Origin: Halosimplex litoreum
GTDB lineage: Archaea > Halobacteriota > Halobacteria > Halobacteriales > Haloarculaceae
NCBI RefSeq assembly: GCF_016065055.1
Contig: NZ_CP065856.1
Coordinates: forward strand, 2,603,836-2,667,835
Reading direction: 5' to 3'
DNA length: 64,000 nt
The notes below the pieces were generated by a model, which ran no database searches, was not told the DNA's origin, and was given only the letters and a program-made list of their open reading frames with translations. The translations under genes were made by a program, and so were the position numbers. How positions within the stretch are numbered: position 1 is the first letter of the stretch; each line of letters starts with the position of its first letter. Below are positions 38,531-46,897 of this stretch, piece by piece.

Positions 38531-39139
38531 ATGGACGGGACGCGGATCGCAGACGTGAGCGATCTCTCGACGGACGATACCTTCCTCTTTCGCGTGCGCT
38601 CGGTGGACGACAATGCCGTCGCGAGCGGCGACGCCGCGCTCCGCTCGGACGAGCGGACGGCCGACGCCGCCGACCAGCCGGACGGGGACGCCGAGCCCGA
38701 CGGCGGCGAGCCGGTCGGAGACGACGCGACGAGTGCCACCAACGACGACGGGATCGCGATGCCCGACGACATGCAAGACGACGATGACGGCGTACGCGAG
38801 GCGATCCTCCTGAAGCTGGGTGGCGAGGACGACGACGCCGAGGCGGTCGTCTGCTGGCTCAACTACTGCCAGCACATGACCCACATCAAACTCGACAAGG
38901 GCTCTGGGGCGCCGATCCGCGACGGCGAGGTGATCTGCGTCAACCACGGCGCGTTGTTCGCCGCCGACTCCGGGGAGTGCACCTACGGCCCCTGCGAGGG
39001 CGCGTTCCTGAACGAACTCGACGTGGCGGTGGCCGACGGCGGCGTCTACCTCGCCGACGAGGAGTTCGAGTACGTCGGCGAGGGCCCGGTCGAGAGCGAC
39101 GACGACGACCTGTCTTCCTCGTCGAACGTGATCCTGTAG
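38531..39139 (+). CDS. Rieske [2Fe-2S] domain protein
   Basis: A 202-aa acidic cytoplasmic protein. The first 90 residues are an Asp/Glu-rich linker region after a beta strand (DTFLFRVRSVDD). The C-terminal part carries a Rieske-type cluster site: CQHMTH about residue 117 and CVNHGALF about residue 138, followed by ECTYGPCEG. This matches the CxH...CxxH pattern of ferredoxin-like Rieske proteins. It is likely an electron-transfer component. A membrane anchor and oxygenase partner are absent. Confidence 0.88.
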   Translation: MDGTRIADVSDLSTDDTFLFRVRSVDDNAVASGDAALRSDERTADAADQPDGDAEPDGGEPVGDDATSATNDDGIAMPDDMQDDDDGVREAILLKLGGEDDDAEAVVCWLNYCQHMTHIKLDKGSGAPIRDGEVICVNHGALFAADSGECTYGPCEGAFLNELDVAVADGGVYLADEEFEYVGEGPVESDDDDLSSSSNVIL

Positions 39140-41090: not shown

Positions 41091-42920
41091 ATGCGTTCCG
41101 CCCTCTCCGCAGTCGTCGCCGGGCTCGTCGTGCTGTCCGCGGTGGCCGCCCTCCCCGCCGCGGCCGCCGGCGACCCGGTCGATGCCCCGACGACGGACCG
41201 GTCCTCGAACACTGTGGGCGCCTCGGCCGCCGAGGCCCTCCAAAGCGACGACGCCTGCGCGGCCGCGCCGGTCGCCAACGGGAGTTCGCCCGAGAACCCC
41301 GACGGTGACCCGCTGGGCTGGGAGAACGGCTGCTGGTACAACGAGTCGATCGACGTGGACCGCTCCGACGGCCTCAACGACACGGAACTCGACGCGGTGG
41401 TCGCCCGAGGGATGGCTCGCGTCGAACAGATCCGCGAGCTGGAGTTCGACGAGACGGTTCCGGTCGAAGTCGTCTCCCGGGAACAGTTCCGCGCGAACAC
41501 CAGCTACGACGCGACGACCAACGGGAGCCTCCACCAGAACGTCAAGTGGGAGGCGATGCTGATGGTCGGCGAGGACACGGACGCCATCTCCGTCCAGGAG
41601 TCGAACACCGGCGCGAGCGTCGGCGGCTACTACAGCCCCACGGAGGAGCGGATCGTCATCGTCTCCGAGAACACCACCTCGCCGAAGATGAACGAGATCA
41701 CGCTCTCACAGGAGCTGTTCCACGCGTTGCAGGACCAGCGGTACAACATCTCGTCGTACGACCAGTACACCGAGGAGCTCCACAACGCCAGAGACGGTAT
41801 CATCGAGGGCGACGGGAACTTCGTCGACCAGCTCTACAGCCAGCGCTGTGCCGCCGGCTGGGACTGCCTGATGCCCCAGACCCAGCCCGGCGGTGGCGGC
41901 GGGAGCGCCTCGGTCCACCAGGGGCTGTTGCTGGTGACTTACCAGCCCTACAGCGACGGGCCGGCGTTCGTCCGCGGCATCTACGAGTCGGAGGGCTGGG
42001 AGGGCGTCAACGCGGTCTACGAGAACCCGCCGGCGAGCACGGAGCAGACGATCCACCCCGAGAAGTACGGCGAGGACCAGCCGACCAACGTGAGCTTCGC
42101 GGACACCTCCGGGGCCGACTGGACGGTCCCGACCCTGGAGAACGGCACCGTCGACTACGCGCAGTTCGGCGAGGCCGGGCTGGCGACGATGCTGTTCTAC
42201 CCCTTCTACGACTCGGGCGGACAGGCCGCGCCGGTCGTCGACCCGCGGTCGTTCATCACCGGCGGCTCGCCGGACCCGCTCAACTACTCGACGCAGTACA
42301 CGGACGGCTGGGACGGTGACCGACTGTATCCCTACGTCACCGACGACTCCGCCGAGACCAACGAGACCGGCTACGTCTGGAAGACCGTCTGGGACTCCGA
42401 AGGCGACGCTACCGACTTCGTCGAGGGGTACTCGATGCTGCTCGACTACTACGGCGCCCAGCCCGTCGACGACAGCGCGAACACCTACCGGATCGCCGAC
42501 GGCCCCTACGGCGACGCCTTCTACGTCAACCATACCGGGACGACCGTGACGCTCGTCAACGCACCCTCCGTCGAGGGGCTGAGCGAGGTCCGCGCCGGCG
42601 CCGCGCCGGCCGACGGGTCGACCGACGGGACCGACACCGCGACCGATTCCGGCGGCGACGACGAGACGGCCACCGACGCCGAAGAGACGGCCACCGACAC
42701 CGCGACCGCGACCGACGCACCCGAGACCGATTCGGACACCGCGACCGCGACCGAGGAGCCGATGGCGAACGACGGCGGTGCGGGCGACGGCGGTGACGGC
42801 GCCGACGAGGCGACCGACGAACCCGCCGAGACCACCGCGTCCGGGGGTCCGGGCTTCGGGCTCGCCGTCGCGCTCGTCGCGCTCGCGCTCGCCGGCCTCC
42901 TCGCCGGCCGGAGGGAGTGA
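41091..42920 (+). CDS. Hvo_1808-type surface protein with PGF-CTERM anchor
   Basis: A 609-aa secreted protein. A Sec-type signal (SALSAVVAGLVVLSAVAALP, cut near AAAAGD) precedes a large extracellular domain. The C-terminus has a Thr/Asp-rich stalk of about 80 residues with repeated TATDA-like words, then PGFGLAVALVALALAGLLAG and a basic end. This is the PGF-CTERM signal processed by archaeosortase A and lipid-anchored. The paralogous position of the zinc-protease motif in the next gene reads LSQELFHALQDQ here (Gln207, Glu208, His211), so the first metal His is lost. The ATG at 41091 is used. Confidence 0.92.
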   Translation: MRSALSAVVAGLVVLSAVAALPAAAAGDPVDAPTTDRSSNTVGASAAEALQSDDACAAAPVANGSSPENPDGDPLGWENGCWYNESIDVDRSDGLNDTELDAVVARGMARVEQIRELEFDETVPVEVVSREQFRANTSYDATTNGSLHQNVKWEAMLMVGEDTDAISVQESNTGASVGGYYSPTEERIVIVSENTTSPKMNEITLSQELFHALQDQRYNISSYDQYTEELHNARDGIIEGDGNFVDQLYSQRCAAGWDCLMPQTQPGGGGGSASVHQGLLLVTYQPYSDGPAFVRGIYESEGWEGVNAVYENPPASTEQTIHPEKYGEDQPTNVSFADTSGADWTVPTLENGTVDYAQFGEAGLATMLFYPFYDSGGQAAPVVDPRSFITGGSPDPLNYSTQYTDGWDGDRLYPYVTDDSAETNETGYVWKTVWDSEGDATDFVEGYSMLLDYYGAQPVDDSANTYRIADGPYGDAFYVNHTGTTVTLVNAPSVEGLSEVRAGAAPADGSTDGTDTATDSGGDDETATDAEETATDTATATDAPETDSDTATATEEPMANDGGAGDGGDGADEATDEPAETTASGGPGFGLAVALVALALAGLLAGRRE

Positions 42921-42929
42921 ACCCGGTCG

Positions 42930-44279
42930 ATGGCAGGGTTCGGATCCGAGTCGCGTCTGCGCCTCGCTCTCGCGGCGGTCGCCGTCCTCGCGCTGCTCGC
43001 GGGCTGTACCGCCTTCGAGTCACTGGGCGGCGGGCATCCGGAGGGCGACCCGGCAAGCGACCGGATCGGCTGGGAGAACGGCTACTGGTACGACGACCCG
43101 GTGAACGTGACGGCCGGTGACGGCTACAACGCCACCGAGCGCGAGGCCGTCGTCGCGCGCACGATGGCCCGCGTCGAACGGATCCGGGACCTCGAGTTCA
43201 ACTCGACGGTGCCGGTCGACGTGCTCAGCCGCGAGCAGTACCTCGAAAACCGGAGCGGCGGCGGTGGGAACGCGACGTACTCGCGGTGGAACGACCAGGT
43301 GTGGGAGTCGCTGTTCATCGTCGGGGAGTCCTCGTCGTACTCGAACAGCTCCGACGAGACGCTGGGTCAGTCCGTGCAGGGCTACTACTCGCCCGGCGAG
43401 GACGCTATCGTCCTCGTGTCGGACTCGCCGACGCCGACCATCGACCGGACGACGCTGGCCCACGAACTCGTCCACGCCCTGCAGGACCAGCAGTTCGGCT
43501 TCGGCGCCGACGGCGAGACCCAGGACCGGCAACTCGCCAACCGCGGCGTCACCGAGGGCGACGCCCGCTACGTCGACGTCCTCTACGAGAACCGCTGCGG
43601 GAGCGAGTGGGCCTGTATCCCCGAGCCCGACGCCGGCGGGGGCGGCGGCTCGGCGAGCAGCGACTACAACCGCGGCCTGTTCCTGACCATCTACACGCCC
43701 TACGCCGCGGGCTCGCAGTTCGTCGACCAGGTGCGCGCCCAGAGCGGCTGGGACGGCGTCAACCAGCTCTACGACGCCCGCCCGGAGAGCACCGAACAGC
43801 TCATCCATCCGCAGCTGTACCCCGACGAAGACCCAGTGAACGTGACCGTCGCCGACCGCTCGTCGGGCGAGTGGCGCCGCTTCGACGTCGACCCCGTCGC
43901 CGACACCGTCGGCGAGGCCTCGATCTACGCGATGCTCGTCCACAACGACGCCGTCGACCCGGAGAACCGCTACGGCTACGACGCCGAACCCTCCGCCGGC
44001 TGGGGCGGCGACAGCGTCGTCCCCTACACGAACGGGGAGGCCGGCGCCTACGTCTGGGAGACCACCTGGGACTCCGAGGGCGACGCCGAGGAGTTCCACA
44101 CCGCGTATCTCGACGTACTGGAGTCTCACGACGCCCGCAATCCCCGCGGGAACGTCTACGTCGTCCCCGACGGCGAGTTCGCCGACGCGTTCCGCGTCGT
44201 TCGGACCGGCGAGACGGTCCGGGTCGTCAACGCACCGACCGCGGACGCGCTGAGCGCCGTTCACTCGCGGTCGGGATAG
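42930..44279 (+). CDS. Hvo_1808-type lipoprotein with HExxH motif
   Basis: A 449-aa paralogue of the preceding protein, about 10 bp downstream. The N-terminus is a lipoprotein signal (LAAVAVLALLAGC, lipid Cys26) instead of a C-terminal anchor. The extracellular domain matches the neighbour (RIGWENGYWYDD, WDSEGDAEEFHTAY, VVNAPTADALS). It keeps a complete HELVH (His178, Glu179, His182) within LAHELVHALQDQ, and an Asp/Glu-rich EGDARY (Glu209) about 27 residues on could be the third ligand. A zincin-like metalloprotease is therefore plausible. No biochemical data are claimed. Confidence 0.9.
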   Translation: MAGFGSESRLRLALAAVAVLALLAGCTAFESLGGGHPEGDPASDRIGWENGYWYDDPVNVTAGDGYNATEREAVVARTMARVERIRDLEFNSTVPVDVLSREQYLENRSGGGGNATYSRWNDQVWESLFIVGESSSYSNSSDETLGQSVQGYYSPGEDAIVLVSDSPTPTIDRTTLAHELVHALQDQQFGFGADGETQDRQLANRGVTEGDARYVDVLYENRCGSEWACIPEPDAGGGGGSASSDYNRGLFLTIYTPYAAGSQFVDQVRAQSGWDGVNQLYDARPESTEQLIHPQLYPDEDPVNVTVADRSSGEWRRFDVDPVADTVGEASIYAMLVHNDAVDPENRYGYDAEPSAGWGGDSVVPYTNGEAGAYVWETTWDSEGDAEEFHTAYLDVLESHDARNPRGNVYVVPDGEFADAFRVVRTGETVRVVNAPTADALSAVHSRSG

Positions 44280-44355: not shown

Positions 44356-45549
44356 ATGACCGACGAGTCGGGCTTCGATATCGTCCCGCCGGAAGCCATC
44401 GCCGACGGACGGGCCACCGACGCCTACTTCGACCGGACGGTCGAGACGCTGGAGCACGCCGACCGCAACCCCCACGTCGTCGCCGAGGTGACCGCCGACC
44501 AGTTCGCCACCGGCGAGTGGGAACTGCTCGCGGGCGTGAAAGACGCCGCCCGCCTGTTCGAGGGCCGTGACGTGGACGTGGACGCCATCCGCGAGGGCCG
44601 GCTGTTCGACGGCGGGCCAGTCATGCGCATCGAAGGGCCGTATCTGGAGTTCTGTCGCCTCGAAACCGCGCTGCTCGGGTTCCTCTCGCACGCGACGGGC
44701 GTCGCGACCGCCGCGCTCGAAGCTCGCCGCGCCGCTCCGGACTCGACCGTTCTCAGCTTCGGCTCGCGCCACGTCCACCCCTCGATCGGCGCGATGGTCG
44801 AGCGCTCGGCGCTTTTGGGCGGGCTCGACGGCTTCTCGAACGTCGCCGCCGGCGAGGTGCTCGGCCGCGAGGCCGGCGGGACGATGCCCCACGCGCTGCT
44901 CATCTGCTTCGGCCGCGGCGAGCAGGAAGCGGCCTGGCAGGCATTCGACGAGGCCGCCGGCTCGGACGTGCCGCGCGTCGCCCTCGTCGACACCTACAGC
45001 GACGAGGTCGACGAGGCCGTCCGGGCCGCCGAGGCCGTCGACGCCCTCGAATCGGTGCGGCTCGACACCACCGGGTCCCGGCGCGGCGATTTCGAGCACA
45101 TCGTCCGGGAGGTACGCTGGACGCTCGACGCCGAAGGGTTCGACGACGTCGGCATCTTCGCCAGCGGCGGGCTCGGTCCCCGGCAGCTCCGGGAACTGCG
45201 CGAGCACGTCGCGGGCTTCGGCGTCGGCAGCCACGTCAGCAACGCCGAGCCGACGGACTTCTCGCTGGACATCGTCGAACTCGAGGGCGACCTCGCGGCC
45301 AAGCGCGGGAAGCTCACCGGGACGAAGGAAGTCTACCGCACCGACGACGGCGGCCACCACGTCGCGCTGGCCGACGGGAGCGCCACGGGCGGGCCGACCG
45401 CCCCACCCGCCGACGGCGAGCGGCTCCTCCAGCCGCTCGTCCGTGACGGCGAACTCGTCCGCGAGTTCGACCTCGACGCCGCGGTCGACCGCGCCGCCGA
45501 GGACGCCGACACCGTCGGCTTCGAGGCGCTCGCCGACGACGGAGACTGA
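44356..45549 (+). CDS. pncB: Nicotinate phosphoribosyltransferase
   Basis: A 397-aa enzyme that makes nicotinate mononucleotide from nicotinate and PRPP for NAD salvage. Typical segments: TDAYFDRT at the substrate start, EGPYLEFCRLETALLGFLSH, FGSRHVHPSIGAMVER, GGTMPHAL and VRLDTTGSRRGDF, then FASGGL and FGVGSHVSNAE. The ATG at 44356 is used. A short linker separates it from the surface protein, so it is probably transcribed alone. It complements the de novo nadABC operon 10 kb upstream. Confidence 0.95.
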   Translation: MTDESGFDIVPPEAIADGRATDAYFDRTVETLEHADRNPHVVAEVTADQFATGEWELLAGVKDAARLFEGRDVDVDAIREGRLFDGGPVMRIEGPYLEFCRLETALLGFLSHATGVATAALEARRAAPDSTVLSFGSRHVHPSIGAMVERSALLGGLDGFSNVAAGEVLGREAGGTMPHALLICFGRGEQEAAWQAFDEAAGSDVPRVALVDTYSDEVDEAVRAAEAVDALESVRLDTTGSRRGDFEHIVREVRWTLDAEGFDDVGIFASGGLGPRQLRELREHVAGFGVGSHVSNAEPTDFSLDIVELEGDLAAKRGKLTGTKEVYRTDDGGHHVALADGSATGGPTAPPADGERLLQPLVRDGELVREFDLDAAVDRAAEDADTVGFEALADDGD

Positions 45550-46291: not shown

Positions 46292-46897
46292 TCAGTGACC
46301 GGCCGCGGTCGAACGGCCGCGGTCGGTGTCGACGACCGCGTCGCAGACGATCCGGAAAGTCTCGACGGTGTCGTCGTCGTGGGCTCCGGGATCGAGGTGG
46401 AACACGACGATGCCGTCGACGCGGCGAGCCACTTCACCCAGCGTGTAGACGAACTTGAACGCGGTCGGCTCGTCGACGTGCTGGAGCACCCCAGTCAGCG
46501 AGTGGACCGCGACGCCGACGCGGTCGCCCGCGTCGGCGGTCCGCTGGAGGACGTCGCTGATTCGGCGACCGAGCGCCTCCAGGTCGGTCGGGTCGACGAC
46601 CCGCTCGACCGGGACGGTGCTGTCGGCGGTGGCCGCCCCGGCGGCCGACCGCGTCGGCCGGTCCACGTCCACGCACGCGGCGAGCGGCGGTCCGGTGTCG
46701 GCTCCCCGCTCCCACTGCGAGAGCCACTCCGCCGCCGGCAAGGAGATCGTGACCGGGATCGCCCGGTCGATCCGGTCGCCGAGGCGGTCGAGCACGGTCA
46801 CGCAGGCGTCGGTCGAGTGGTCGTACGCGTCGGGCGCCAGCAAGAGCACCGTCGTCGCGTCGCCGATATCCGCCGCTCCCCGGACACGCACGGTCAC
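46292..46897 (-). CDS. DUF7504-like haloarchaeal protein
   Basis: A 201-aa protein resembling the RecA-like HTR/DUF7504 proteins found next to haloarchaeal HalX regulators and sensor kinases. It begins with a strand-like ATTVLLLAPDAYDHSTDACV and ends with IVVFHLDPGAHDDDTVETFR. RVGVAVHSLTGVLQHVDEPT is the middle segment, with Ser and Thr in place of a P-loop. No ATP-binding signature is complete. The family number is from memory. It probably acts in regulation with the HalX protein. Confidence 0.72.
   Translation of the reverse strand: MTVRVRGAADIGDATTVLLLAPDAYDHSTDACVTVLDRLGDRIDRAIPVTISLPAAEWLSQWERGADTGPPLAACVDVDRPTRSAAGAATADSTVPVERVVDPTDLEALGRRISDVLQRTADAGDRVGVAVHSLTGVLQHVDEPTAFKFVYTLGEVARRVDGIVVFHLDPGAHDDDTVETFRIVCDAVVDTDRGRSTAAGH

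Follow-up and report, generated by a model that had tools for sequence, protein, structure and literature searches.

A recurrent histidine–glutamine switch in the predicted metal site of Hvo_1808-family surface proteins, viewed from a tandem gene pair of Halosimplex litoreum

Two adjacent genes, referred to herein as gene A and gene B, lie in a 64,000-nucleotide stretch of the Halosimplex litoreum genome (NZ_CP065856.1, positions 2,603,836 to 2,667,835; hereafter the window) and encode surface proteins of the Hvo_1808 family, A carrying the motif QELFH and B the motif HELVH. This is a known family without a characterised function, and in it we find a real and unusually clean switch between His and Gln at the first motif position (H and Q forms). 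We give about even weight to the view that the two forms are alternative metal-site states of one surface metallohydrolase, whose metal binding, catalysis and substrate we infer.

On this view A and B would be a long-standing tandem pair whose products are two-domain proteins anchored at the surface, each joining a gluzincin-type metallohydrolase domain, most likely a peptidase, to a PknH/TiME-like C-terminal domain, and each held outside the cell, A by a PGF-CTERM tail and B by lipid. B has a complete predicted zinc site, HExxH followed by a Glu. A would have a variant of it, with Gln for the first His and with the general base Glu208, His211 and Glu239 retained; it would still bind metal, Gln being a weaker oxygen ligand that probably brings another metal preference, and would work outside the cell as a functional form of the enzyme that B represents, not as a dead partner of B. 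The features of the pair, in window coordinates, are as follows.

41091..42920, plus strand: gene A, Hvo_1808-family surface protein, QExxH form, 609 amino acids (open reading frame; NF038145)
41091..41168, plus strand: gene A signal peptide region, residues 1-26, hydrophobic N-terminus (sequence reading)
41289..42080, plus strand: gene A predicted gluzincin-like N-terminal domain, model residues 1-264 (AlphaFold2 and structure matches)
41709..41723, plus strand: gene A QELFH, residues 207-211 (sequence, alignment, model)
41805..41807, plus strand: gene A Glu239, candidate third metal ligand (alignment, model)
42081..42593, plus strand: gene A C-terminal domain, PknH/TiME/RseB-C-like, model residues 265-435 (VIA)
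42834..42914, plus strand: gene A PGF-CTERM surface-anchoring tail, residues 582-608 (TIGR04126)
42930..44279, plus strand: gene B, Hvo_1808-family surface protein, HExxH form, 449 amino acids (open reading frame; NF038145)
42996..43007, plus strand: gene B lipobox LAGC, Cys26 (sequence)
43044..43835, plus strand: gene B predicted gluzincin-like N-terminal domain, model residues 1-264 (AlphaFold2 and VIA)
43461..43475, plus strand: gene B HELVH, residues 178-182 (sequence, model)
43554..43556, plus strand: gene B Glu209, candidate third metal ligand (alignment, model)
43836..44264, plus strand: gene B C-terminal PknH/TiME-like domain, model residues 265-407 (VIA)

Two motif forms within one surface protein family

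Both genes are intact open frames on one strand with 9 nucleotides between them. Each is a full-length match to the NCBIfam model NF038145, "Hvo_1808 family surface protein", whose name assigns no function (574.3 bits for A and 497.2 bits for B, both over model positions 1-432; cut-off 200). At 39% identity over 450 aligned columns (E = 5e-94) they are paralogues, in agreement with the duplication proposed in an earlier reading of the window made from sequence only. That sequence-only reading had also paired QELFH with a PGF-CTERM anchor in A and HELVH with a lipoprotein anchor in B, and the translations, TIGR04126 and the LAGC lipobox bear this out, down to the numbering of His178-Glu179-His182 in B, which is exact. 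The tail of A follows a Thr/Asp/Glu-rich linker and scores 26.6 bits against TIGR04126 (cut-off 24.5), while its score against the Pfam PGF-CTERM model PF18204, 14.9 bits, is under the cut-off of 18.8. In B, LAGC stands after a hydrophobic stretch, a predicted archaeal lipoprotein signal. The same lipobox is described in passages of PMC2945643 for Hvo_1808 of Haloferax volcanii, a cell-associated protein whose membrane anchoring was studied there. Among the matches listed, the closest named relatives of A are from Halosimplex, with 91% to H. carlsbadense.

The family is nearly universal in haloarchaea, with a match above the NF038145 cut-off in 390 of 391 Halobacteria genomes; the sole genome lacking one (G129) is 98% complete. 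A phylum-wide search returned 53 of 294 genomes above the cut-off, all 53 belonging to the order of the window by kinship code, along with weaker matches in 24 further genomes of other orders. Outside the window, the source genome, a single contig of 4.16 Mb, also holds two adjacent open reading frames with HExxH that are distant zincin-like relatives (L143:1-9001), and a further distant zincin-like relative that carries no [HQ]ExxH (L144:1-8001). Our literature search found no report naming the Hvo_1808 family as a protease or describing its enzymology, nor a description of the QExxH subset of NF038145 and its switching.

For comparison across the family, one representative was taken for each of 86 genera (42 + 44 genomes), and the regions of the 85 with an NF038145 match were fetched; 78 loci came from scanning named genomes, where the best 80 of 251 confirmed stretches were kept, and are biased toward Q-like relatives. 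As some genomes are present twice in the locus counts, loci are not independent. A first set of 154 domains, from which one partial row and all rows of 350 bits or less had been dropped, contained 135 HExxH and 19 QExxH motifs. The larger set of 259 distinct domains, drawn from 275 rows after removal of identical sequences and of domain scores of 250 bits or less, contained 208 and 51, respectively, with no third residue at the first motif position. The motif Glu (Glu208 in A), the second His (His211), the downstream Glu (Glu239 in A, Glu209 in B) and Gln214 were invariant in 259 of 259 domains, so that the catalytic Glu208 was kept in all 51 Q rows. This conservation is far beyond chance. Gln is encoded by CAG in 48 rows and CAA in three, and His by CAC in 207 and CAT in one.

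Anchor type was rejected as the meaning of the H/Q division, each anchor being present in both forms: by a simple pattern match, the 19 Q rows of the 154-domain set comprise eight with PGF, ten with a lipobox and one with neither. The anchor difference between A and B is unconnected to the His-to-Gln change.

Predicted fold and active site

AlphaFold2 models of the shared region had a mean predicted local distance difference test score (pLDDT) of 94.7 for A and 93.8 for B. Both models place the motif on a single helix (helix 136-152 in A, with the motif at model residues 141-145; helix 135-150 in B, with the motif at 140-144), and the helix after it holds the invariant Glu (A, residue 173 of helix 162-189; B, residue 171 of helix 160-184). 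With VIA, residues 1-264 of A matched 3cmn (Z 10.1), M1 aminopeptidase N (Z 7.3) and collagenase H (Z 6.6), and those of B matched 3cmn (Z 11.0), M1 enzymes (Z of about 8) and the M4 enzyme thermolysin (Z 6.1). Foldseek by itself returned 3cmn at E = 8.5e-3. A sequence search for a solved relative found none with gene B alone, and with a profile it gave marginal matches only, the best being 3cmn at E = 0.47. The top matches of both predicted models are gluzincins, in support of the zincin-like fold that had been suggested for the pair. Their C-terminal domains are nearest to PknH, TiME and RseB domains (A: 7cu8, Z 6.3; 4esq, Z 6.2; 2v43, Z 5.1. B: 4esq, Z 7.2; 7cu8, Z 7.2).

A and B resemble the gluzincins (M1 enzymes, M9 clostridial collagenases, M4 thermolysin and 3cmn) in the predicted fold of residues 1-264, where the motif-bearing helix precedes a helix bearing a Glu. 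B has HExxH on the predicted active-site helix, whereas A, with QELFH, is without the first His; in both, the following helix offers a Glu as candidate third ligand, and here we infer the ligation. Unlike the gluzincins, both proteins carry an extra C-terminal domain and are without a Pfam peptidase match above cut-off: no curated Pfam peptidase family reaches its cut-off for A or B, and Pfam zincin matches stay below their gathering cut-offs (DUF6782 for B, 19.3 versus 27; Peptidase_M76 for A, 15.8 versus 25.2). The gluzincin assignment, made on predicted models, is supported by fold and motif together and not by Z alone.

Repeated switching and its interpretation

The first tree was built without the motif columns, and those of 259 and 107 rows without columns 198-250. 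The 107-row tree, computed under a mixture model, covers the clade holding all Q rows plus eight outgroup rows, after removal of same-state rows more than 85% identical and of named long-branch rows. In the first tree the 50 rows of gene-B orthologues group in a single clade and are H throughout, while gene A falls in a 19-row clade (18 Q, one H) nested in a larger H group. A and B thus belong to distinct clades, each common to many haloarchaeal families, which makes the duplication an old one. HExxH is the ancestral state of the family: it is present in every one of the 16 relatives that were fetched from outside Halobacteria, and the all-H clade of gene B agrees.

The A lineage includes H as well as Q members, and its state changes repeatedly. 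The 259-row tree contains ten His/Gln changes, at least eight of them forced by starred branches, and the 107-row tree nine, of which seven are forced; on supported branches, the residue therefore seems to have switched at least seven to eight times. H rows stand within Q groups in Halobium (L091, support 97-98), in a Halorussus-type group (L176, 99) and in Haladaptatus (L179, group support 99). In Haladaptatus the two states are found at the same locus, beside nicotinate phosphoribosyltransferase, with L171-L173 being Q and L179 being H. For several changes the direction is uncertain, as the A lineage may have acquired Q early and later reverted.

Other residues change with the motif. We examined 194 columns and ran the 165 variable ones through independent row pairs. 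In the 259-row tree the switch was followed by Phe/Tyr210 in 7.96 of 8 pairs, Asp246 in 7.38, Ser206 in 6.17 and Gly242 in 5.39, against a background of 71 columns averaging less than 1 of 8. In the second tree columns 210, 246, 206 and 242 again lead, here among 169 columns (6.87, 5.93, 5.34 and 4.88 of 7, respectively). All four sit in the two predicted active-site helices of the AlphaFold2 model. His231 was considered as a substitute metal ligand in the Q clade and rejected: it is found in 45 of the 51 Q rows and missing in six, it occurs in some H rows near the Q clade, and it tracks the switch in 3.56 of 8 pairs only. One Q row of the first set, L082 (genome G031, a minus-strand open reading frame), lies outside the main Q group with a seemingly independent QELYH, again accompanied by an aromatic residue at 210 and by Asp246.

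The Q form otherwise resembles the H form in its constraint. H rows have 40 columns with conservation of 95% or more, and in Q rows four of these drop below that level, namely 207 itself and three others (94, 88 and 82%); the corresponding losses in five control H clades are 0 to 9 out of 36 to 45 columns. The ratio of nonsynonymous to synonymous substitution rates (dN/dS, NG86) among Halosimplex-type orthologues was 0.20-0.48 for A and 0.20-0.35 for B. Both genes are under purifying selection, A somewhat less tightly, and constraint is not relaxed in the Q form. Decay of gene A was rejected, as the gene has no stop, is under purifying selection and keeps the conserved residues.

The sequence-only reading had further held that a zincin-like protease was duplicated and that one copy turned into a non-catalytic partner. 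The first half agrees with the predicted fold and the paralogy; the second does not hold in general, given Q-only genomes, repeated switching and retention of the other site residues. Among the 86 genomes with family rows (85 genus representatives and the window's own), 17 have a Q member. In five of these 17 (G001, G002, G024, G050 and G093) no family match above the cut-off is of the HExxH form, and in two of the five, G001 and G002, the Q member is the sole family match; the genome of Halobacterium salinarum has a single family match, QELFH. Since Q-only genomes exist, Q copies need no H partner, and the Q copy as an obligate partner of an HExxH copy was rejected.

In its original shape, with A as a non-catalytic subunit that binds or regulates an active B protease as in mixed protease complexes, the partner model seems to us improbable. 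It fits the adjacency of A and B on one strand and the frequent tandems elsewhere, and the loss of one His would normally weaken zinc binding, but the H-less genomes above do not suit it, and tandem HExxH pairs occur too (e.g. Haloferax, L207). Pseudo-protease subunits do exist; plant FtsHi proteins are, like A, protease paralogues with an altered HEXXH motif. According to passages of PMC8197885, however, FtsHi proteins have both histidines replaced or the motif missing, whereas Q-type proteins lose one His, always to Gln, and keep all else. Where a genome has both copies, one may act as a partner, but that cannot be the general explanation.

The main rival, to which we assign a low but real probability and beside which the partner model is less likely, holds that Q types are stand-alone pseudoenzymes, their fold and site being kept for binding a surface ligand or peptide without hydrolysis, perhaps together with the C-terminal domain. 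The missing first zinc ligand, the likeness of the C-terminal domain to sensor and lipoprotein domains, and the Q-only genomes all suit this account. It is harder to reconcile with the invariance of the catalytic Glu208 in Q rows and with the apparent regain of H inside Q clades (L091, L176 and L179), which would be easier if the machinery had stayed functional.

Our own preference is for two working metal-site states, and several points weigh against it. Gln ligates zinc poorly, and strong constraint is also compatible with a pseudoenzyme. The best structural matches besides 3cmn mostly have Z near or below 8, on predicted models. Many branches are weak, leaving the number and direction of switches uncertain. 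As the coupled columns are near one another in sequence, gene conversion over short tracts between tandem copies could account for some of the switches, and around the motif the reverted Halobium copy is similar to its neighbour. Intervening columns such as 231 and 235 track the switch much less, which argues against simple transfer of a single tract.

A more specific version of the preferred reading is tentative, and we hold it with clearly less than even confidence: HExxH and QExxH would be interchangeable and catalytically competent, toggled at least seven to eight times as a package of Gln207, an aromatic residue at 210 and Asp246, often with Ser206/Gly242, so that metal preference shifts (e.g. 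from zinc to copper or another ion) and function is kept. The preferred reading has a precedent in Volvox VMP3, a QEXXH metalloproteinase that prefers copper and is catalytic as cited in passages of PMC7717551, from which it follows that QEXXH need not mean inactive. VMP3 shares with A an extracellular location and a natural His-to-Gln replacement at the first metal ligand. The likeness is by motif only: VMP3 has QEXXHXXGXXH with a metzincin-type third ligand, whereas A reads QELFHALQDQ, without HxxGxxH and with Glu as the candidate ligand. One altered motif residue is insufficient for the label of pseudo-protease.

For a near-universal haloarchaeal family without known function, these results supply a predicted fold and a likely active site, and they describe its conserved neighbourhood and a natural variant of it. 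The switch, recurring with its coupled neighbours, is a ready means of testing how a gluzincin copes with losing a metal ligand or puts the loss to use; H. salinarum, with Q only, and Haloferax, with only H at the locus in the species examined, are tractable laboratory organisms for this. If the more specific version is true, the family would amount to a natural, replicated experiment in swapping the metal of a gluzincin.

Genomic neighbourhood

The pair is followed in the window by a conserved neighbour:

44356..45549, plus strand: nicotinate phosphoribosyltransferase, downstream neighbour (NF006415, 503 bits versus 243)

Comparison with other genomes revealed that this flank is conserved and that A/B-type tandems are frequent. 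Among 181 family loci, a count that includes secondary copies, short contigs and genomes counted twice, nicotinate phosphoribosyltransferase lies downstream on the same strand in 127, and 43 of the 52 Q-bearing loci have it. An isochorismatase-family hydrolase stands beside the family genes in 128 of the 181, upstream and divergent in 123, and both neighbours are present in 114. In the other genomes this hydrolase matches Pfam Isochorismatase, its best Protein Data Bank match being an N-carbamoylsarcosine amidase-related protein; we place it in the isochorismatase superfamily only, a nicotinamidase label being a guess.

Such synteny could indicate that the family is a surface hydrolase or binding protein for salvage of nicotinamide adenine dinucleotide (NAD) precursors and not a general protease. 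The number of loci with both neighbours, and the phosphoribosyltransferase being always downstream on the same strand in those that have it, speak for this. We nevertheless consider it very improbable: synteny may persist without functional linkage, the upstream hydrolase is not identified as a nicotinamidase, and known gluzincins are mostly peptidases. In the window, moreover, the phosphoribosyltransferase alone adjoins the pair, the isochorismatase-family hydrolase not being beside it.

Two further open reading frames lie near the pair. Upstream, a Rieske [2Fe-2S] domain (23.7 versus 20.3 bits) occurs in a small protein encoded at positions 38531-39139, and positions 46292-46897 hold, on the minus strand, a DUF7504/DUF7090-family open reading frame.

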